From contig OW568876.1 of NCBI GenBank assembly GCA_938743325.2, positions 496,001 to 560,000 of the forward strand: 64,000 nucleotides of DNA, written 5' to 3'. This document shows positions 11,051 through 32,577 of this stretch, piece after piece. Position numbers and translations under genes: made by a program. The notes beneath the pieces are model-generated. The model searched no databases and had not been told where the DNA came from. It saw nothing but the letters and a program-made list of their open reading frames with translations. The stretch comes from Pycnococcus provasolii. Its lineage: Eukaryota; Chlorophyta; Pseudoscourfieldiophyceae; Pseudoscourfieldiales; Pycnococcaceae. Position 1 is the stretch's first letter. Every line of letters starts with the position of its first letter.

Positions 11051-11187
11051 TGCTCTTCTCCACGCTCTTTCAGCATTGCCTCAATCATGCTAGCCTTGCT
11101 AGGTGACGACGACTTATTGTTATCATTCTTCGCATCTGACGATCCCACGTCGGGGTTTACCCCCAGTTGGGGATCCCTCACACATAA

Positions 11188-11205
11188 GGGGGGGGGGGGG
11201 GGGGG
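11188..11205. repeat. poly-G run
   Basis: Eighteen consecutive G in the region between the RING ORF and the receptor cyclase gene, a likely site of length polymorphism or sequencing error. Confidence 0.85.
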
Positions 11206-11468
11206 CAGGGGGACTATTGGCGTTTTTAGGAGCTTGCGCAAGGCTTCTTGCGCAGAAAAAAAGGAAAATCCAAAACCCGAAAAAGCATTTCATCCCCACC
11301 AGTCCGTCCACGCTGTCACGGTCCAAGAAGACCGTGACGACTTTTCGGAATTTGTTTCGTCCACACCGTCTCTATCGGGTCGTCGAGTCGACATATTATT
11401 TTGCCTCATTCCCAACTCCCAACCCGACTGCATCTAACTCTCGAGAAAACGTCGTAGTAGTCGTTGCC

Positions 11469-14400
11469 ATGGCGGTGGCGTGGCGAGCGGCGTGCAACAA
11501 CAACAGCACCATCAACCCAAGAAGAGCAACAACAACGTCAATGGTGGCGGTGCTTCTTCTTCTGACAACGATTCTCCTCATGTCATTCAAAGGGTTGTTG
11601 TGCGATGCACAGCAACAGCAGGAGCAGCCATCACCACCACAGCCTTCATCATCGTACACCACCACCCCTCCTCTTCCTCCAAGCACAGACGACGATGACC
11701 AGCAGGAGGAGGTGAACCTGACGACGGAAGCTGCGAAAGTCTCCTCACCTCCTCCTCCTATGCAGATTTCATGTGATGCGTCGAAACTCTCACGATTCGT
11801 TTATCCTGCAGATGCTGAAGATCAACAGAATAGTAGTAAGCTTTGCTCGAGTTTCTTGTTGGTGCAGACCACCACCACCACCACCACCACTCCTTTCAAC
11901 TCATTCGCGACAGGTTTGCGAGCAGCTTTCCATAAGGCTTCTTCTTCTGCATCAATGCTATGCCTCACTCTGCACATTTGCACGCTCGAAGAGGAAGAAA
12001 AATCAGACAACAACCAAAACAATACACAACAAACTCTTGACTTGTCATCCTTCGTGGGACTCTTTGCAAGCGATGAGCTCGCGACAATTAAGACGGCAAG
12101 GTTGTGGAATCACAGCAGCAGCAGCAGCAGCAGCAGCAGCCATCATCATCATCTACCGCTGATTGGTCCTGCGACTGGTCTGAATTCACTGCGCACCAAA
12201 GATCCCTTCATACGCAACGTCGTGAACGTGCGTGTCGGCATCAAAGAGGAGATTGCCGCACTGACGGAAGCACTCTTCGAGGCTCATGAGTCGGAAAACA
12301 CAGCCACCAATGATGATAATAACTCCTTGGATGACGGACGTCGACGTTCCTCCACCAATCGTGGTGGTGGTGGTGAAGACGAAGAAGTCGGTCTTCTACG
12401 CAATGAAGATGTCATCGGCTTTGAAAGCATTGGAGCTATAGTAGCACACCATTTTCCGTCATCAGAGGACGTAATCTCTGCCGCCGAGGAGCAAATGCGC
12501 GCTCGCTTACACCCAGACCTTTCCGTTATCCAAGAGTGGCCATGGAACGCGTCGGAGGATGAAATACAGCGTGTGTTTGAAGCCGTATTCAAGCCTTCCG
12601 GTCCCGATCAAAACAAGCCAGTTCCGCGCGCTCTCTTTCTGCATGGCAGCGCAAAGAATGTGGCTCATTTTGCAAAACTTGCCAGCGACTTTGACACGAC
12701 GACGACGACGAGGACTCGACGACACTTGGAAGCGTCGGACCACGACCACGCTTCTCGCGTGCTTCTCGTGACGAGCGCAACAGGTGCTTATGAGCTGAAT
12801 CGTGAGCTAGCGAGAGTGTTTGCCACCGAGCCCATGTGGGGAGGGAGTACAACAGCAAATAATTCTGCCGTGACGACGTCAACGGCGGAGTTCGCCGCCA
12901 GCTCCGCTACTACCGCGGAGATTCACACCATATCCGTTGCCATATCGCAGGTGCTTCCCACGATGGCTCTTGCGAGTGGCGTCGCCAGTGACTCTGGTCC
13001 AGCTGCCGAGCTCGTCGATGAATTTCGTGACGCGATGAAGCGAAGTCCTCCTCTCTCCTCCGAGTCCACTCATCACTCTTCTCCGAGTGACACGGCATTT
13101 GAGGGGTATGTCGTGGGCACGCTAACCACGCAACTTCTTGTCGATGCGACTCGTTCAATGAGGGAGGCTTACAAAATAGCACAAGACTGTGCGTGCACGG
13201 GCATAAACACCGGAATCAACGAGACGATTTTTGGACGTGGATATGGGACGTCATGTGCCGCTTGGGAAGTTCGACAACAAGATGCAGCAAGTGGTCTTCT
13301 TCTCCCGCTCGATCTCGACAAGTGTGAAGCTCTCTGGGGACCCGATGCGCCTCTCACCAATACCAGTGTGCCGCTCGGGGGCTGGTGCTGTCAGCAATGG
13401 TGTTATGTGAGCCGCAGCTGCCCGGGTGCGCGTCTCAGCAGCTCATCTCCCGAGTCCATGCTCTTCTACAGCTATAGCCCGACAGATTGCCCATCGACAC
13501 CTGCGAGAGAGTGTCTTGCACGCTACGCAGCAAGCGAAAATAATGTGGACGCGTTTCTTGGAACGGAAGATGCATCTTCGCTCGAGAAGGAGCTAGCGAA
13601 TGATGACGACGGCAAGGGCATAAAGATTGCAGCTATCAACTCTCTGCGTGCCGCGATGCTCGATTCACTTTATAATCAAGGAATTTGGGAAGTTGGCGGA
13701 AAGTTCAGGCTTGGTCCGTACGGTGACACGTGTTTCCAGCCAGGCACCGGATGTTATTGCAACTCTGGACTGCACAGCGTTTACATGCTGCACTCTCACG
13801 AACCAGGTATCATGCACGGCGCTCACACGACGCCCACGGGATCTCCCGTTCTCACATTCGGAGGGTGCCGACTAAATACAGTCGCGCCCGATCCCATCAT
13901 CATCGGGCAGAGCTGCGCTCTCACGGGTCCTACGTCGGCGCTCGGCTTGGGCATGAATACCGGAATGCAAATCGGGGTGGACGAGATCGACGCGCTTGGC
14001 GGTGTTGCCGGCACATTCCTAAATCTCGCTGCTGTCGACGATGGCTACGAGCCAAATCGTGCGGCGGACAATGTGCCCGTGCTCCTCGAAGAGAAGGGGG
14101 CCGCTCTGCTCGCTGGTTTCGTTGGCACGCCAACGTCAAAGGCTGTTGTGGAATGGTTGGAGGCAAACAACCGCACGGATGTGCCATTCATTGCACCTTT
14201 CACCGGTGCGGGACTCCTTCGCATGGGCCAGCGTTCGATCATCAACATTCGTGCAAGCTACGGAGATGAGACGGCGGCGATGGTGATGCACTTTGTGGGG
14301 GATCTTGGCATGCGGCGCATCGCCATCTTTGCACAGGAGGATTCGTTTGGCAGAGCAGGATACGACGGCCTCGTTGCGGCACTACAGCTGACGAAAGTTC

Positions 14401-17400
14401 CACTGTATGCGGAAGGATGGTACATTCGCAACACAGTGGACGTTGCTGCCGGAGTCGACGCCATCCTTGGGTCATACGACGCAGATCCGGTACCCGAACC
14501 ACCTCAGCTCATCGTGATGATTGGAGCCTACAAGCCTCTTGCTGCATTTGTCACCGCTGTTCGCGCGAGAGTTCAAAAGACAGGCTCGAATGTTCCAGTC
14601 TTCACCACCGTGAGCTTCGTCGGCACGGCAGCTTTCAGCGCGGCTCTCGCCACGCCGGAGAACCGCGAAAATGTTTGGATCACGCAAGTGGTTCCCAACC
14701 CAAATGGACAAGGCGATTTTGCAAGGCGTTATCGCGCCGCACTCCGTCTCTTCGACCCAAACCTCGAGCCTGACTTTGTGAGCTACGAGGGATACATTGC
14801 CATGCGATTCATCGACGCCGTGCTTATGAGGATGGGGGAGGTGTATCGCCACGGATTGGATTCGCGCGAGTTTGTGCGCGATTTGCGAAAGAAATTCTTG
14901 GATACGGTCTACGAACCGCCGGGGATCTTCATCCTAGACCAGCAAAACCTTGTCATCGGACCTTATTTCGAAGAAGAGCCGGGATACTGGTGCAATCAGG
15001 GATTGCGCACCGTTTGGCTGACGAAGCTGAATCCCAGCAACGGCGAGGCTCTCTACGGCGTTGACGGCGTCACTCCATTCCAGTACTCCACCTGCGGCTA
15101 CGATGCGCTTTCCCGCTTGGAGGAAGAGCAGATTAACTTTGATGTGGGCCGCATCCTCGGCATCATAGCCGCGGTCATCCTGCCACTGCTATTCATATGC
15201 TGTCTCATTTCTGCCTTGCTGGTACGGCGCTACGTGCGGCATCGAGAGGCGAAGGCAATCATGGAGACCTGGCACATCGAATACGACGACCTGACATTTC
15301 TGCACCCTCTCGGTGAAGGCGCCCAGGGTACGACTTGGTATGGCCGTTACAGCGGGACGGAGGTGGTGATCAAGCAGATTGACGCGCCTCCAAAATCACA
15401 ACGCATCGGTGAAGGCAGGAGGAGTTTACATTCGAAACGGACTCCTCCGTCGCCGAGGCCATCTTCTTTAGAGTCATCGAGCCCCAAAGACTCGGCGGAG
15501 GAAGCAGCAGCTGGGACGGTGGTGAAGGCGTCCTTACCAGCTGCTATGCCGCTTACGATGCGCTCAATCAGCAAGGGAATTGTTGCACGCTTGCGCATGC
15601 AGCCGCAGCAGTGCAAGCCAATGCACGTGTCTCAGCTGCCGCGATCCATTCGCGAGTCACGGAGCGATTGTGCAGATATGACGCACGCTCTGACATTCAC
15701 TTCAGAAGATGACGCGGCGGTAGCAGCCGCAGCAGCAGCAACAGCACACCACGATGATAATGGTGATGATGATGGTCACCCTTCTTCTTTATCCACCGGA
15801 ATGGCGGAGGCAGAGGTGAATACAGAGACGGTGGCGGCAACGAAGAATGATGAAAATAATGGTCTACCAAGCGCGCTGCGGCGGGGTGGCAGTCAAATCA
15901 CACGCAACAGCGACGGAAGTCAGAACGATGTCGATGGAACACGAGATGCATTCAAGAGAAGCGTAAGCCTATCGCAGCAGTATGACTCGGTAGAATTCGC
16001 CAGCCTCTCCCAGCGTAAGAATACTATTAGAAGAGGCTTCACGAGTATCTTTAATAGTAGCTCATCACGTGGCAAGACGGTTGATCGCGAATTCAACGTG
16101 CTCCATCGACTGCGCCATCCTAACATTCGGCTGTTCATGGGCGCATACCTCGGCGTGGCGTCGCAAAAGAGAAAGAAGAAGAGAGAATCTTGCAAGGAGA
16201 AGAAGAAGAAGAAGACCTCGAAATTCAACGAGATATTCGCCATGATGACGAGACGAAGAGAGAGGAAGACGGGCAGCGATGCGAGTGACGTAGAGGACGT
16301 GGAAGGTGGTGGTGGTAATGGCGACGACGGCGATTACAACGAGTGCCAAGAGAATGAGGAGAAGGAAAGGCTCCACCCTCGCTCCTCCATCCTCATCGTG
16401 AGCGAGTACATGACGCGAGGGAACCTTCACGACATCTTGTCGAATCCCACGCTGGAACTCGACTGGGAAATGCGCCTGTCGTTCTGCCGTGACATGGCTC
16501 GTGGCCTGATGTATTTGCACAGCCAGGAGCCACCAGTGTTGCACCAAGATCTGAAAAGTCACAACATGCTAGTTGACGATCGCTGGAATGTGAAGGTGGG
16601 TGACTTTGGTCACTCCGCGGTGCTGAACGAGGTACTTGGAAGCAGCGTGACTGGCACTCCTCTGTGGACAGCCCCGGAGGTGCTCTCTGGAAAGCCCAAT
16701 ACGCAGGCTAGCGACGTTTATGGCCTCGGGATCGTGTTCTGGGAGGTGCTGAGCCGCCGCGACCCGTACGACGATGAAACGACTTCACGTGACGACATCA
16801 TCCAACAAATCATTGCTGGCGTGCGACCTCGCATGCCAGCGGCAGGAGGCGAAGGAGGTGTGGTGGTGCCGGAGAGCATGACCAAGCTTATCATGACGTG
16901 CTGGTCGAGCGATCCCGAAAGTCGACCTACCATGATGGAAGTTTCCAAGATGCTCGACAGCATGGTTAGCAGCAACGAACTCACGCTGGGCGGGCGGATG
17001 AGGTCTTCTTCTACCGGTGTTTCAAGCGGCGCGAAGTTGCTCGTGAATCGCATGCTCCCGGCACGAATTGCACGCGCGCTCGAGGATGGCCAACCCGTGC
17101 AGCCAGAGCACTTTGACGACGTCACGATTCTGTTCAGCGATATCGTGGGGTACACCGCCATTTCGAGCTCGCTGCCCCCTGGCGAGGTGATGGACATGCT
17201 CAATCGGCTGTACACCGCATTTGACGCGCTCACAACAAGGCACGGCCTGTTCAAGGTGGAAACAATAGGCGACGCGTACATGGTCGTGGGAGGCTGTCCT
17301 GAAGCTCAACCCGACCACGCGGTTCGCATCGCACGCATGGCACTGGACATGCTCGAGACGGCGGCCACCATCCCCGTTAGCAACATGTCGGATGACTTTG

Positions 17401-20045
17401 GCACCATCTGCATACGAGTGGGTCTCCACTCTGGACCTGTCGTTGGAAGTGTGGTGGGTGATCTGCAGCCTCGGTATACTCTATTCGGGGACACGGTGAA
17501 TGTCGCATCCCGCATGGAGTCGACGTCGTTGGCGAAGATGGCGCAAGTGTCCAGTGCCACGTACCAGCGCCTCGTCGACTCTGGCGAAACCGGCGCATTC
17601 ACGCTGCAGCCGCGTGGCGAGACCACAGTTAAGGGAAAGGGTATGATGCACACATACTGGCTGCGCCCGGCGGGGCACCTCATGCTTCTCGGATGGCTTG
17701 AGGCGCTCGTTGAAAAACACGGGCTGGACATGGAGGATGTCAAGTCGATCCCAGAATCGTACATGCGTACCGCCGCTTCGGAGGAGGAGCTGCTCGCATG
17801 CACGAGGCTTCGGCACCTTGATGCCTTCAAGCTCGGAGCGCGTTACCTTGAGAAAGTTAGCATGATGGGAGGTGACCCGAGCGTGGCGCTTGGCACGATG
17901 CTGAGCGTGGATGTCGAACTGCTTGGCGCTGTTAGAACCTTGGAAGAGTTGCGTGCTGTCGTGAGGATTGCTGCGCAGGCTGCTGGACACGTTCCGCCGG
18001 AGGAGGTGGCGAAGAAGGGAGAGGATGCTGCGGCACATACGTCGGTGTCGTCCTCCTCTCCTCTGAAAAAGTCGAGCGCGACGAAGGCGGCGGAACCTGA
18101 TCATGTCACCACGATGTCCGCCAACGCCAAGCTTGCACAGGCGACGCTCTCCCATTTGCAAGAGCTCGTTGCAGAGAATCGCGTGTTTCTCACGCGCTTC
18201 TCCAACGTGCCGAGCCAGTTATTGGATCTCATATGCAAGCGTGAACATATGATGTGGCTTCTGTCAATGGCGCATGATGAATCTCAGCAGCAGCAGACGC
18301 TTGAATCGCCTTTGGCAAGCCAAAGGATGCAGCATGGCACCTTTGCGGAGGATACGACGCCATCACAAGAGCCTCAGTACGAACGACAGGGAAGCTTGAG
18401 TAGCACAAATACATACAGCCGCTCGTCAAGCCTGAGGATGAGTGGTACCGCGATGATGCTGAAATGGCTGGCAGTCTGCGTCTCTACTGAAGCGCTGTGG
18501 CGTTTTAGTACACACTACCACCATTACCACCCCGCCGATGCCGCCACAGCAGCAGCTACAGAGGCTGAGAACGTGGCAGAAACAATAAGCAGCGCAGACA
18601 AGCTTGACACACTACGTCGCGTTCCGCACTCGTTGTACACGATGGCAAATTCGCTCGAGCTGATGAAGCAGGTCGTACGAATGGAAGTGGAAGGCTCGCA
18701 TGCAGCGCTCGAGGCTTTTGACGAAGCGCTTGGAAGCGGACACGATGCATCGTCAGCACAGGATTTCCATCGCCTGCTGAATGAGTGTCCGTCCATCTTG
18801 CTGGATACTGCCGAATCTGGTGATGACGTACAAGCCTTGCTTTCGTGGATCAAGGCTTCGCCTGATTTGGTCAAGCTTCTCGGCGAAGCGTGCATATCAC
18901 AATTGACTGCCGCGATTGAGAAGAGGACCAGCGCATCTCTTCACGGCGGTAGGAGTTTTGCAAACCAAGTCACGCTGCCGCGACTGCGACATGTACCGCA
19001 TGTTGTGCTGACGCAGCTCAGGTCAACGGAGCACGTGATGAAAGTTCTGAGCTTGGAAAAAAGGTGCCTGGAATGCTTGGCTGAGCTTTTCATGGATGAC
19101 GAGAAGAAGAAGGGCAGAGAGGATTATCTTCATCATCGTAATGATGAACGAGACGACGAGAGTCGTACGAAAGCAGAGACAGTGGTGGTTGCTTCGGACG
19201 ACGACGAGGTGACGCCCGTGCAAGATAGGCGCAGCCGTGTTCCCGCGGCGCCATCACCAACCAGTTCCGAAGCGCACGCGAAGCACCAGGTGGTGCTGAC
19301 GCGCCTCGTGCTCTCTCCGAAGCCCCTGCTTGACGCCTGCAAGACGACGGGTGATCTTCACACGGTGCTTCACGAGTGGCTCGAGCCCGTGGGAGAAGGA
19401 GGTGGGCGGAGGCGGGACGCCAGGCGCGCGTTTAATGAAGACGATGAGTATGAGGATGAGCTTCAGCGTGACCAGAGCAGCAAGAAACCCAATGTGGCGC
19501 TTGTCAAGGTGCTTTCGAGAATCGTCTCCTCCGACGCGTCGCGTTTCGTGGCGTGCCGCGCCGTTCCCACGGCGCTGCTTCAAACTACCGGCGGTGATGA
19601 CGAGGTGAACGTTCTCGTTGAGCTTGCGTGCGTGAATGCTGATGTTATGCCTTGGCTTGCCGAATTTGTGGGCAGCGGGGAGTACACGCTGAACGACGCC
19701 GTGATGCTCCCACGGAATTTGTTTGCGCACATCAAGACACGCGAGCAGCTTGCTTGGACGCTTGGCATAAGGAGCAGCACGTCTGCGGCATACAACGTCG
19801 GAGGAGTCTCAAGTAGTCACTTCAACGACGTTGCCGTGAGCCGGAGTATCTCGACGAACGCGGTGCTTCAGACCGCCGCGACGAGGAGGCTGATGACGAA
19901 GAAGTCGAAGCTGCTCGAGGAGCTCGCGAGGCTTGAGCAGAAGCTCGACGAGCAGAGCAGCATCGGAAGTGAGAAATCAGTGTCGGCAGCGGCGGCGGCA
20001 GCGGCGGCTGGGGCTGTGCCTGAGGCGAGTAACCAGGAGGAGTAG
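11469..20045 (+). CDS. receptor-type nucleotide cyclase: dual PBP ectodomain, TM, protein kinase, class III cyclase
   Basis: The start is the ATG at 11469 (gttgccATGGcg), giving 2858 aa without introns. A hydrophobic segment at residues 25-45 is a signal sequence or anchor. A degenerate periplasmic-binding-protein-like region (about 210-570) is followed by a Cys-rich spacer (about 575-765) and a clear Peripla_BP/ANF-receptor domain (about 808-1130, opening IIIGQSCALTGPTSALG). A membrane helix lies near 1230-1257. The kinase (about 1273-1838) has GEGAQGTTW, VVIK, HQDLKSHN, DFG and APE, so the catalytic Lys and Asp are kept; two long basic/acidic inserts interrupt its N-lobe. The cyclase (about 1856-2071) has FSDIVGY, ETIGDAYMV and DTVNVASRMES, with both metal Asps and the Glu typical of guanylate cyclases. 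Thr replaces the Cys usual in animal guanylate cyclases (PRYTLFGDT), so GTP preference is likely but unproven. The last 750 residues hold a repeat of unknown kind. Plasma-membrane ligand sensing is inferred. Confidence 0.9.
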   Translation: MAVAWRAACNNNSTINPRRATTTSMVAVLLLLTTILLMSFKGLLCDAQQQQEQPSPPQPSSSYTTTPPLPPSTDDDDQQEEVNLTTEAAKVSSPPPPMQISCDASKLSRFVYPADAEDQQNSSKLCSSFLLVQTTTTTTTTPFNSFATGLRAAFHKASSSASMLCLTLHICTLEEEEKSDNNQNNTQQTLDLSSFVGLFASDELATIKTARLWNHSSSSSSSSSHHHHLPLIGPATGLNSLRTKDPFIRNVVNVRVGIKEEIAALTEALFEAHESENTATNDDNNSLDDGRRRSSTNRGGGGEDEEVGLLRNEDVIGFESIGAIVAHHFPSSEDVISAAEEQMRARLHPDLSVIQEWPWNASEDEIQRVFEAVFKPSGPDQNKPVPRALFLHGSAKNVAHFAKLASDFDTTTTTRTRRHLEASDHDHASRVLLVTSATGAYELNRELARVFATEPMWGGSTTANNSAVTTSTAEFAASSATTAEIHTISVAISQVLPTMALASGVASDSGPAAELVDEFRDAMKRSPPLSSESTHHSSPSDTAFEGYVVGTLTTQLLVDATRSMREAYKIAQDCACTGINTGINETIFGRGYGTSCAAWEVRQQDAASGLLLPLDLDKCEALWGPDAPLTNTSVPLGGWCCQQWCYVSRSCPGARLSSSSPESMLFYSYSPTDCPSTPARECLARYAASENNVDAFLGTEDASSLEKELANDDDGKGIKIAAINSLRAAMLDSLYNQGIWEVGGKFRLGPYGDTCFQPGTGCYCNSGLHSVYMLHSHEPGIMHGAHTTPTGSPVLTFGGCRLNTVAPDPIIIGQSCALTGPTSALGLGMNTGMQIGVDEIDALGGVAGTFLNLAAVDDGYEPNRAADNVPVLLEEKGAALLAGFVGTPTSKAVVEWLEANNRTDVPFIAPFTGAGLLRMGQRSIINIRASYGDETAAMVMHFVGDLGMRRIAIFAQEDSFGRAGYDGLVAALQLTKVPLYAEGWYIRNTVDVAAGVDAILGSYDADPVPEPPQLIVMIGAYKPLAAFVTAVRARVQKTGSNVPVFTTVSFVGTAAFSAALATPENRENVWITQVVPNPNGQGDFARRYRAALRLFDPNLEPDFVSYEGYIAMRFIDAVLMRMGEVYRHGLDSREFVRDLRKKFLDTVYEPPGIFILDQQNLVIGPYFEEEPGYWCNQGLRTVWLTKLNPSNGEALYGVDGVTPFQYSTCGYDALSRLEEEQINFDVGRILGIIAAVILPLLFICCLISALLVRRYVRHREAKAIMETWHIEYDDLTFLHPLGEGAQGTTWYGRYSGTEVVIKQIDAPPKSQRIGEGRRSLHSKRTPPSPRPSSLESSSPKDSAEEAAAGTVVKASLPAAMPLTMRSISKGIVARLRMQPQQCKPMHVSQLPRSIRESRSDCADMTHALTFTSEDDAAVAAAAAATAHHDDNGDDDGHPSSLSTGMAEAEVNTETVAATKNDENNGLPSALRRGGSQITRNSDGSQNDVDGTRDAFKRSVSLSQQYDSVEFASLSQRKNTIRRGFTSIFNSSSSRGKTVDREFNVLHRLRHPNIRLFMGAYLGVASQKRKKKRESCKEKKKKKTSKFNEIFAMMTRRRERKTGSDASDVEDVEGGGGNGDDGDYNECQENEEKERLHPRSSILIVSEYMTRGNLHDILSNPTLELDWEMRLSFCRDMARGLMYLHSQEPPVLHQDLKSHNMLVDDRWNVKVGDFGHSAVLNEVLGSSVTGTPLWTAPEVLSGKPNTQASDVYGLGIVFWEVLSRRDPYDDETTSRDDIIQQIIAGVRPRMPAAGGEGGVVVPESMTKLIMTCWSSDPESRPTMMEVSKMLDSMVSSNELTLGGRMRSSSTGVSSGAKLLVNRMLPARIARALEDGQPVQPEHFDDVTILFSDIVGYTAISSSLPPGEVMDMLNRLYTAFDALTTRHGLFKVETIGDAYMVVGGCPEAQPDHAVRIARMALDMLETAATIPVSNMSDDFGTICIRVGLHSGPVVGSVVGDLQPRYTLFGDTVNVASRMESTSLAKMAQVSSATYQRLVDSGETGAFTLQPRGETTVKGKGMMHTYWLRPAGHLMLLGWLEALVEKHGLDMEDVKSIPESYMRTAASEEELLACTRLRHLDAFKLGARYLEKVSMMGGDPSVALGTMLSVDVELLGAVRTLEELRAVVRIAAQAAGHVPPEEVAKKGEDAAAHTSVSSSSPLKKSSATKAAEPDHVTTMSANAKLAQATLSHLQELVAENRVFLTRFSNVPSQLLDLICKREHMMWLLSMAHDESQQQQTLESPLASQRMQHGTFAEDTTPSQEPQYERQGSLSSTNTYSRSSSLRMSGTAMMLKWLAVCVSTEALWRFSTHYHHYHPADAATAAATEAENVAETISSADKLDTLRRVPHSLYTMANSLELMKQVVRMEVEGSHAALEAFDEALGSGHDASSAQDFHRLLNECPSILLDTAESGDDVQALLSWIKASPDLVKLLGEACISQLTAAIEKRTSASLHGGRSFANQVTLPRLRHVPHVVLTQLRSTEHVMKVLSLEKRCLECLAELFMDDEKKKGREDYLHHRNDERDDESRTKAETVVVASDDDEVTPVQDRRSRVPAAPSPTSSEAHAKHQVVLTRLVLSPKPLLDACKTTGDLHTVLHEWLEPVGEGGGRRRDARRAFNEDDEYEDELQRDQSSKKPNVALVKVLSRIVSSDASRFVACRAVPTALLQTTGGDDEVNVLVELACVNADVMPWLAEFVGSGEYTLNDAVMLPRNLFAHIKTREQLAWTLGIRSSTSAAYNVGGVSSSHFNDVAVSRSISTNAVLQTAATRRLMTKKSKLLEELARLEQKLDEQSSIGSEKSVSAAAAAAAAGAVPEASNQEE

Positions 20046-31003: not shown

Positions 31004-32386
31004 ATGGCCGAGAAGCAAGCGCGCCAGGACGCTACGTGTCCGCACTGCCACAAGGTGTTCTCATCCACGTCCAATCGCAACCGACACGTTCGCGCTGTCC
31101 ATGAGGTCCATGAGGTCAAAAAAACCCACAAGTGCTCGTTCCCAGGATGTACGTACGCGGCGACGCAAAAGGCAAATCTGAAAGTGCACGAGCGGACGCA
31201 CACGGGCGAAAAACTGTTCAAGTGCTCGTTCCCGAATTGTACGTACGCGGCGACGAAAAAGGCAAATCTGATAATGCACGAACGAACGCACACGGGCGAA
31301 AAGCCGTTCAAATGTCAATTCCCAGGATGTACGTACGCGGCGACGCAAAAGGTAAATCTGAAAGTGCACGAACGAACCCACACGGGCGAAAAGCCGTTCA
31401 AATGTCAATTCCCAGGATGTACGTACGCGGCGACGCACGAGGCACATCTGAAAGAGCACGAGCGAACGCACACGGGCGAAAAACCGTTCAAATGTCAGTT
31501 CCCAGGATGTACGTACGCGGCGACGCAGAAGTCACATCTAAAAACGCACGCCATGTTCCGACATACGAACGAGCGCCCCCATGCGTGTACCGAGCCGGCG
31601 TGCGGCATGCGCTTCGTGACGACCGTCGAGCTCAAGAAGCACGTCAAAGGTTATCACACGCCCGAAGGCATTCAGAAGAAGAAGAAGGAGGAAGAGCGCT
31701 GGACGAAGGCGCTGCTCCGCGACGGGTACGTGATGGACGCCGCGAACGACGATTCGGCACCCGTCCCTGGTCATTTTCGCCGCGAGTTCCGGATCGAGTT
31801 CCGGTGCCTCCAGGATGGGAGTACCGCGGCGTACGCCCGGATCGATTTCGTGATTTGTCCCATCGGCGGTTCGCCGAACGTCATCATCTTCCTGGAAATC
31901 GACGAGCATGAACACAGATTTTACTTTGGTGGGGTTGCGTGCGACGTCAAGCGCATCGGGCGCGTGCACGAGGCGCTCGCGCTCGGAAGCCTCGGGTTCG
32001 GCGGCGTGGATGGCGTGAAGATTACGTGGCTTCGTTACAATCCGAACGATTTTACGATCGACGAGGTTCCGCAGAAGCTGGACAAGCGCGAGCGCGAGCG
32101 CGTCCTGCTCCGCCGCCTCCGCGACATTGGCGCGTCCGCCGCGACGGACGAGTCGGGTGACCTTGAAGCGATCGAGTACTTCTGCTTCGACGCGGACGCG
32201 GAGACGGCGGAGCGCCCGCTCGCGTGCGAGGACCCCGCGTTCGCGGCGTACCTCAAGTCCGTGGTTCGACGCACGGAGCGCGCGATGATGGAGGAACGTG
32301 AAAACAAAAAGCGCGCGCACGAGGTCGGTCCGTCGGCGGATGGCGCAGACGCGGCGGGACCGAGCACGAAACGCGAACGCAGTTAG
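31004..32386 (+). CDS. C2H2 zinc-finger array fused to a PD-(D/E)XK-like nuclease domain
   Basis: The 460-aa product starts at an ATG at 31004. Residues 12-218 contain seven C2H2 fingers (first Cys at 12, 44, 74, 104, 134, 164 and 195), with HTGEKPF-type linkers between the central ones. After a basic linker, residues about 255-350 form a separate domain: IEFRCLQ, ARIDFVI (D281), IIFLEIDEHEHRFY (E298, D300), CDVKRI (D314, R317), and ITWLRYNPNDFTID. The order D...ExD-(E)-x-H...D-x2-R...LRYNP is that of a restriction-endonuclease-like (Vsr-like) family that I recall from giant viruses and algae, usually without fingers. The tail is helical, Glu/Arg-rich and ends in Lys/Arg. Sequence-specific DNA binding plus cleavage or nicking is the inference; a non-cleaving regulator is possible. 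Confidence 0.75.
   Translation: MAEKQARQDATCPHCHKVFSSTSNRNRHVRAVHEVHEVKKTHKCSFPGCTYAATQKANLKVHERTHTGEKLFKCSFPNCTYAATKKANLIMHERTHTGEKPFKCQFPGCTYAATQKVNLKVHERTHTGEKPFKCQFPGCTYAATHEAHLKEHERTHTGEKPFKCQFPGCTYAATQKSHLKTHAMFRHTNERPHACTEPACGMRFVTTVELKKHVKGYHTPEGIQKKKKEEERWTKALLRDGYVMDAANDDSAPVPGHFRREFRIEFRCLQDGSTAAYARIDFVICPIGGSPNVIIFLEIDEHEHRFYFGGVACDVKRIGRVHEALALGSLGFGGVDGVKITWLRYNPNDFTIDEVPQKLDKRERERVLLRRLRDIGASAATDESGDLEAIEYFCFDADAETAERPLACEDPAFAAYLKSVVRRTERAMMEERENKKRAHEVGPSADGADAAGPSTKRERS
31130..31564 (+). repeat. 90-bp tandem zinc-finger units with variable contact codons
   Basis: Five units in 90-bp register (31130, 31220, 31310, 31400, 31490) encode fingers 2-6. Backbone bases such as tgtacgtacgcggcgacg are identical between units. 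Differences cluster in the recognition-helix codons, giving residues -1,2,3,6 of QANV, KANM, QVNV, HAHE and QSHT. Confidence 0.9.
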
Positions 32387-32577
32387 TGTGTGTAACACGC
32401 GCGCGTTTCCCGGAATTTAACCCATAACACGCTGCATCCCACACACGGCGCAGGACATCACGCGGTCCTCTCCCTCATCCGCGCGGCGAACGCTCACGCC
32501 CTCAAGTACGGAGACGCCAAAAGAACCGCAGCGCGGACAGCGATGGCCGCTCCCGGTGGACCAGGGTTAGTAGGGGC
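32387..32577. other. short intergenic between convergent genes
   Basis: Separates the zinc-finger/nuclease stop from the stop of the minus-strand secreted nuclease-like gene. No feature seen. Confidence 0.4.

Follow-up and report, generated by a model that had tools for sequence, protein, structure and literature searches.

A zinc-finger gene of Pycnococcus provasolii with a putative Vsr-like nuclease domain and paralogues that diverge at the DNA-contact residues

The green alga Pycnococcus provasolii possesses a gene in which seven C2H2 zinc fingers are followed by a putative Vsr-like nuclease domain, and what is new about it is the presence of three intact copies in the genome whose DNA-contact residues have diverged beside a conserved domain. 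The gene lies at positions 31004-32386 (+) of the window, that is, the whole stretch of 64,000 nucleotides that was analysed. The best explanation, to which we assign a probability of about one half, is that the gene is a host-encoded, sequence-directed endonuclease with a fast-changing address, probably engaged in an arms race against mobile elements or invading DNA; the probabilities given to this explanation and to its rivals overlap, and their total is not one. The interest of the gene is raised by the comparison of the paralogues and limited by the weak evidence for the fold.

The open reading frame (ORF) runs from an ATG to a stop codon and encodes 460 amino acids. It is not a chance frame, since two more intact copies and three partial matches are present in the genome and since it includes a 90-bp coding tandem repeat over fingers 2-6 (31138-31550, +; 4.6 copies, 88% matches). 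A Pfam scan of the ORF gave seven zf-C2H2 stretches (PF00096) with 60.3 bits against a curated cut-off of 25.2, and the tandem fingers, with their ligands intact, belong to the C2H2 zinc fingers; outside them, the ORF has no Pfam family above cut-off. The fingers occupy residues 12-33, 44-66, 74-96, 104-126, 134-156, 164-187 and 195-218, and this listing and the Pfam stretches bear out the seven fingers of a preliminary description of the gene. The same description had placed D281, E298, D300, D314, R317 and an LRYNPNDF strand behind the array; all of these were located at those residues, and the description is right both about the architecture of fingers followed by a domain and about the order in which the motif residues occur. 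Finger 1 (31037-31102, +) is of the CPHC type; its contact residues SSNR are identical in the copy on contig C35, and finger 1 was not found in the copy on contig C4. Fingers 2-6 (31133-31564, +) form the variable array, with QANV, KANM, QVNV, HAHE and QSHT at contact positions -1, 2, 3 and 6 and with linkers of the TGEKP or TGEKL type. Finger 7 (31586-31657, +), which contains CTEPAC, is identical in protein sequence across the three intact copies.

The genome examined comprises 32.3 Mb in 46 contigs. The C-terminal part of the gene matches at least six places in it, the match counts being lower bounds: the window, C4, C35, a second place on C4 at 884 kb, C13 and C12. The first three, each on a different contig, are intact copies (C4, 97% identity; C35, 98%), and the partial matches at C4:884 kb, C13 and C12 read as broken fragments. 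The gene body is common to the three intact copies and the 5' contexts differ: homology with the window copy begins near the ATG in the case of the C35 copy, and within the array or at its margin in the case of the C4 copy, and the open frames on both C4 and C35 bear acidic N-terminal extensions. Downstream, the common 3' flank (32387-32556, +) extends to 32478 with the C35 copy and to 32556 with the C4 copy, which corresponds to 92 bp versus 170 bp of homology past the stop codon. In the relics at C4:884 kb and C12, pieces of fingers of another type precede the domain, which suggests that the fusion of fingers and domain probably predates the three intact copies and, as far as these sequences can be read, that a diverged subfamily survives as relics.

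In addition, two places, C43:158611-159003 and C37:290351-290497, hold finger arrays of this type that lack the nuclease domain, and 143 bp of the C37 piece are 99% identical to the C43 piece. The relic at C4:884 kb (C4:880000-889000) adjoins a same-strand frame which reads by eye as RCC1-like repeats, and a frame near the C13 relic reads by eye as a plastid-type sulfite reductase. Around the window copy, the neighbourhood looks like ordinary chromosome, judged from the ORF matches: four of the ten window ORFs scanned have a Pfam match (Leo1, a VTT domain and two of the endonuclease/exonuclease/phosphatase family). An Rfam scan of the window gave no match, and an ORF of 2980 amino acids spans 11103-20045 (+) of the window. 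RAP-domain places over the Pfam cut-off number 16 in the genome.

The divergence of the arrays is concentrated at the residues that contact DNA. When 17 variable fingers from the three copies were compared, the mean amino-acid difference between finger pairs was 0.67 at the contacts (positions -1, 2, 3 and 6) versus 0.15 at the other 15 positions, so that, of all 3876 possible four-position sets, the contacts rank at P = 0.0008, and of the 1365 sets from which the ligands and the core Leu are excluded, at P = 0.0022. Synonymous differences between finger pairs were 0.013 at the contacts versus 0.125 at the other positions. In terms of minimum changes, the contacts have 16 amino-acid changes and one synonymous change, the other positions eight and six (Fisher P = 0.028), and 16 of the 24 amino-acid changes fall on four of 19 codons (P = 1.9e-6) or, counted differently, on four of 15 codons (P = 4.8e-5), all these P values being rough because the changes are taken as independent, which duplication or exchange of fingers would violate. 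The division into contact and non-contact positions used here agrees with that in a passage of PMC4169156, where positive selection at several finger positions is also described for PRDM9.

Varied contacts are expected of any array that reads varied DNA, and the comparison between copies is therefore the sharper test. The last five variable fingers of each copy were aligned for this comparison, the C4 array having seven of which only the last five entered. Contact residues differ at 11 of 20 positions between the window and C4 copies, at 11 of 20 between window and C35 and at 8 of 20 between C4 and C35, and the other finger residues differ at 12, 7 and 7 of 75, respectively. Over the last 266 codons, which take in finger 7, the same three pairs differ by six, five and three residues. 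Synonymous differences at the contact codons are absent in all three pairs. The contrast of amino-acid and synonymous differences between contacts and C-terminal part gives P = 0.014 for window-C4 and P = 0.002 for window-C35 and is not significant for C4-C35 (P = 0.13). C-terminal synonymous changes exceed expectation in the window-C35 (P = 0.0035) and window-C4 (P = 0.039) pairs, with no significant excess in the C4-C35 pair (P = 0.33). Divergence at the contacts together with conservation of the C-terminal part indicates, at the level of the sequences compared, that the array changes fast next to a conserved C-terminal part, and the paralogue comparison thus supports an array of changing specificity.

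The putative nuclease core, of a Vsr/EDxHD-like PD-(D/E)XK kind, covers residues 229-347 (31688-32044, +), as outlined by a motif alignment, a low-confidence model and a weak profile. Its motif comprises D281, E298-x-D300-E301-x2-H304, D314-x2-R317 and R344 in LRYNP. D281 in RIDFV (codon 31844-31846, +) is a candidate metal ligand, and E298-H304 (31895-31915, +) are the candidate active site, which reads EIDEHEH in the window copy and EIDEHQH in the C4 and C35 copies (DEHEH and DEHQH, respectively, over the last five residues); the codons of D314-R317 (DVKR) lie at 31943-31954 (+). D281, E298, D300, H304, D314 and R317 are present in all three intact copies. The order D, E-x-D, H and D-x2-R of Vsr/EDxHD nucleases was found, part of it being the search pattern, and in Vsr a conserved Asp is paired with a conserved His, according to a passage of PMC11879112. 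Seven distinct viral-contig proteins share the order D, E-x-D-E-x-Q-H, D-x2-R and R, of which E-x-D-E-x-Q-H is common by construction because the set was collected with the pattern IEIDExQH. D314 and R317, which are outside the search pattern, align with the viral D and R in every row set tried, and D281 and R344 align with viral residues in some row sets only. Both of the two viral-contig proteins scanned, out of the seven, touch DUF559, one of them above the cut-off (24.9 versus 20.6 bits) and the other below it (15.9 bits).

A profile of the seven proteins ranks the gene first of the 540 window ORFs, but with 4.8 bits only; against the domain it gives 6.8 bits and rank 19 of 20001 sequences including shuffles, with 18 shuffles higher and the best of them at 11.7. 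In a profile-profile comparison, hhalign aligns the same motif at a probability of 15.7%. The profile ranking is a weak sign and no proof. Pfam and other family libraries gave no match on the domain, the sole PHROGs match on it was a tail protein (E 0.15), and sequence searches of the PDB gave no match; a significant family-profile or solved-structure match to a Vsr/EDxHD-like nuclease was thus not found in these searches. AlphaFold on the single sequence of the domain gave a pLDDT of 37, and with four viral rows a pLDDT of 48 and a pTM of 0.41, which are low-confidence values obtained with rows chosen from five trial row sets because D281 lines up with the viral D in them, a selection biased towards the hypothesis. 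At that confidence, the model consists of a helix, three strands, a short helix, a long helix and a strand, approximately an alpha-beta-beta-beta-alpha-beta core plus an extra short helix. Foldseek with this model gave 126 matches at E <= 10 and none at E <= 0.001, the second match being an R2 protein at a non-significant E of 2.3. The PD-(D/E)XK/Vsr-like nuclease of the preliminary description is partly supported: it stands as to residue order, which matches the viral-contig proteins, and lacks a significant profile match; the fold prediction proposed there gave an approximately fitting order of elements, at low pLDDT and pTM and without a significant structural match. We consider a Vsr-like nuclease fold of the domain rather probable, roughly twice as probable as its absence, and nuclease activity is a plausible prediction from the motif.

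Homologues with the same fusion in viral genomes, which the preliminary description had suggested seeking, did not appear: four of the eight viral-contig scans were empty, and none of the eight gave a close relative. One scan gave five stretches, one of them nuclease-like by eye (L027), and the scan with the IEIDExQH pattern gave fourteen, ten of them nuclease-like by eye and seven distinct, L027 included. Another gave seven stretches, none nuclease-like by eye, and a further one gave eight loci, every one on contigs found before. Most of L027, L029, L031, L034, L036 and L038, which are on viral contigs, have a Vsr/DUF559-like end preceded by short repeated motifs, and by eye they are perhaps free-standing homing endonucleases. 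In prokaryote contigs, a protein scan with a piece of L032, rather than the window protein, was empty, and a pattern scan gave at least 118 stretches; of the 80 that were listed and inspected, 10 passed a loose motif test, and inspection by eye left L095 alone as a possible nuclease. Phage records gave no match. Since Vsr-like nucleases occur in mirusvirus introns, with unicellular eukaryotes as hosts, according to a passage of PMC12768974, the domain could, by analogy, conceivably have come from a virus. In the open-licence literature, a fusion of this sort between a C2H2 array and a nuclease domain was not found described.

In the endonuclease reading, the C2H2 array would recognize up to about 18-21 bp of DNA, the distance would be set by finger 7 together with the lysine-rich segment that follows it, and the Vsr/EDxHD-like PD-(D/E)XK domain would nick or cut beside the array-bound site, with a metal held by D281, E298 and D300 and with H304 assisting. 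The array would be rebuilt in two ways, through duplication and exchange of the 90-bp units that encode the fingers and through substitutions at the residues that contact bases, the cutting domain being kept, and each copy would address different DNA. Most likely, the gene would serve in an arms race against DNA that invades or moves, such as that of viruses and retroelements; divergent contacts beside a conserved cutter would be the pattern expected of an enzyme chasing changing DNA. The wider proposition, in which C2H2-Vsr-like nucleases form a re-addressable family that arose within a eukaryotic lineage, has a PRDM9-like turnover of specificity and destroys or drives specific DNA, is more tentative, the odds being somewhat against it.

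A different purpose would be that of a selfish homing or drive gene, which would be copied into its own empty site after its nuclease has cut there, finger changes giving it new sites. The nearest motif relatives, being viral-contig proteins that resemble free-standing homing enzymes by eye, point in this direction, as do copies at unrelated places with differing 5' ends and short common flanks and the existence of relics. However, the intact copies found are only three, and homology ends unequally between them (near the ATG versus within the array or at its margin, and 92 versus 170 bp past the stop), unlike precise homing. Because the copies are few and the ends unequal, defence is favoured, and homing is considered unlikely. 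A DNA-binding regulator with a C-terminal domain that is Vsr-like in shape and does not cut is about equally unlikely. It has a precedent in the Vsr-like FASTKD4, for which the authors suggest an absence of nuclease activity in a passage of PMC11879112, and the acidic N-terminal extensions of the C4 and C35 frames could be regulatory, but none of the 16 listed RAP matches of the genome is at the gene or its copies, which were thus not found to belong to the RAP-domain proteins, and the six motif residues from D281 to R317 are retained in all three copies.

The remaining rivals concern the fold and the cellular process. That the C-terminal domain has some fold other than PD-(D/E)XK, with a motif order due to chance, would agree with profile and fold matches that lack significance, but it is judged somewhat less likely than the two preceding rivals in view of the profile ranks (19 of 20001 with shuffles, first of 540 ORFs) and of D314 and R317, which align with the viral D and R in each alignment although the search pattern did not contain them. 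A marker or maker of meiotic breaks, that is, a specifier in the manner of PRDM9 that brings its own cutter, is very improbable; contact change within a coding 90-bp repeat does resemble PRDM9, but the Pfam matches of the ORF at E <= 10 include no SET/PR domain, and the results have no bearing on meiosis or hotspots.

Several known systems resemble the gene in part. The Vsr/EDxHD (I-Bth0305I) and DUF559-like domains have, like the domain here, the order D, E-x-D, H and D-x2-R followed by a strand, and in EDxHD enzymes the DNA-binding part is separate from the nuclease domain, as here (in a passage of PMC3943268). Unlike in these, a tandem C2H2 array is predicted to bind the DNA here, the gene is in a nuclear genome with several paralogues, and the profile match is not significant. 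R2-type retrotransposon proteins, as described in a passage of PMC10499050, also combine one or more N-terminal C2H2 fingers with a C-terminal restriction-like endonuclease. Unlike R2, the ORF has no reverse transcriptase match in Pfam at E <= 10, and its three copies have seven or eight fingers whereas R2 has one to three. The active-site spacing presumably differs as well between R2 and the window domain. PRDM9 and other fast-changing polydactyl C2H2 proteins share with the gene a coding tandem repeat whose changes cluster at the base contacts; unlike PRDM9, a putative nuclease is present here and a SET/PR domain match is absent (Pfam, E <= 10). In engineered zinc-finger nucleases, a C2H2 array is followed by a cutting domain, as here; they use FokI, and the cutter here is a Vsr-like candidate. 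If the gene cuts, it would be a natural zinc-finger nuclease re-addressed by evolution, and the three copies would be matched cutters with different arrays, which would allow direct tests of specificity, of targets and of a conflict with mobile DNA. Furthermore, if the domain cuts, it could be an alternative to FokI for genome engineering.

Target words were derived from a finger code and compared with reversed words as a control. The predicted target of the window array has no match within the window and 97 matches in the genome versus 71 for the reversed control; the figures are 116 versus 159 for the C35 array and 153 versus 551 for the C4 array. There is thus no clear excess of predicted target sites in the genome and no support for the targets. 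Seventeen of the 97 window-array matches are one word, TGAAGGTAAAAGAAA, and all eight of those sampled lie in one repeat family, a match which is probably due to chance. This family (L191-L198, on C1, C2, C6, C7, C13, C19, C31 and C38) has 216-bp direct terminal repeats, with both ends in L194 and L195 and one end in the six others, which run to the edge of the stretch. The eight sampled copies match one another at >98% identity, and TGAAGGTAAAAGAAA sits 48 bp inside one end of them. The longest open frame in L191 (3.3 kb, one strand read) is 224 amino acids, and the family looks, from its sequence, like a recently active LTR-type element.
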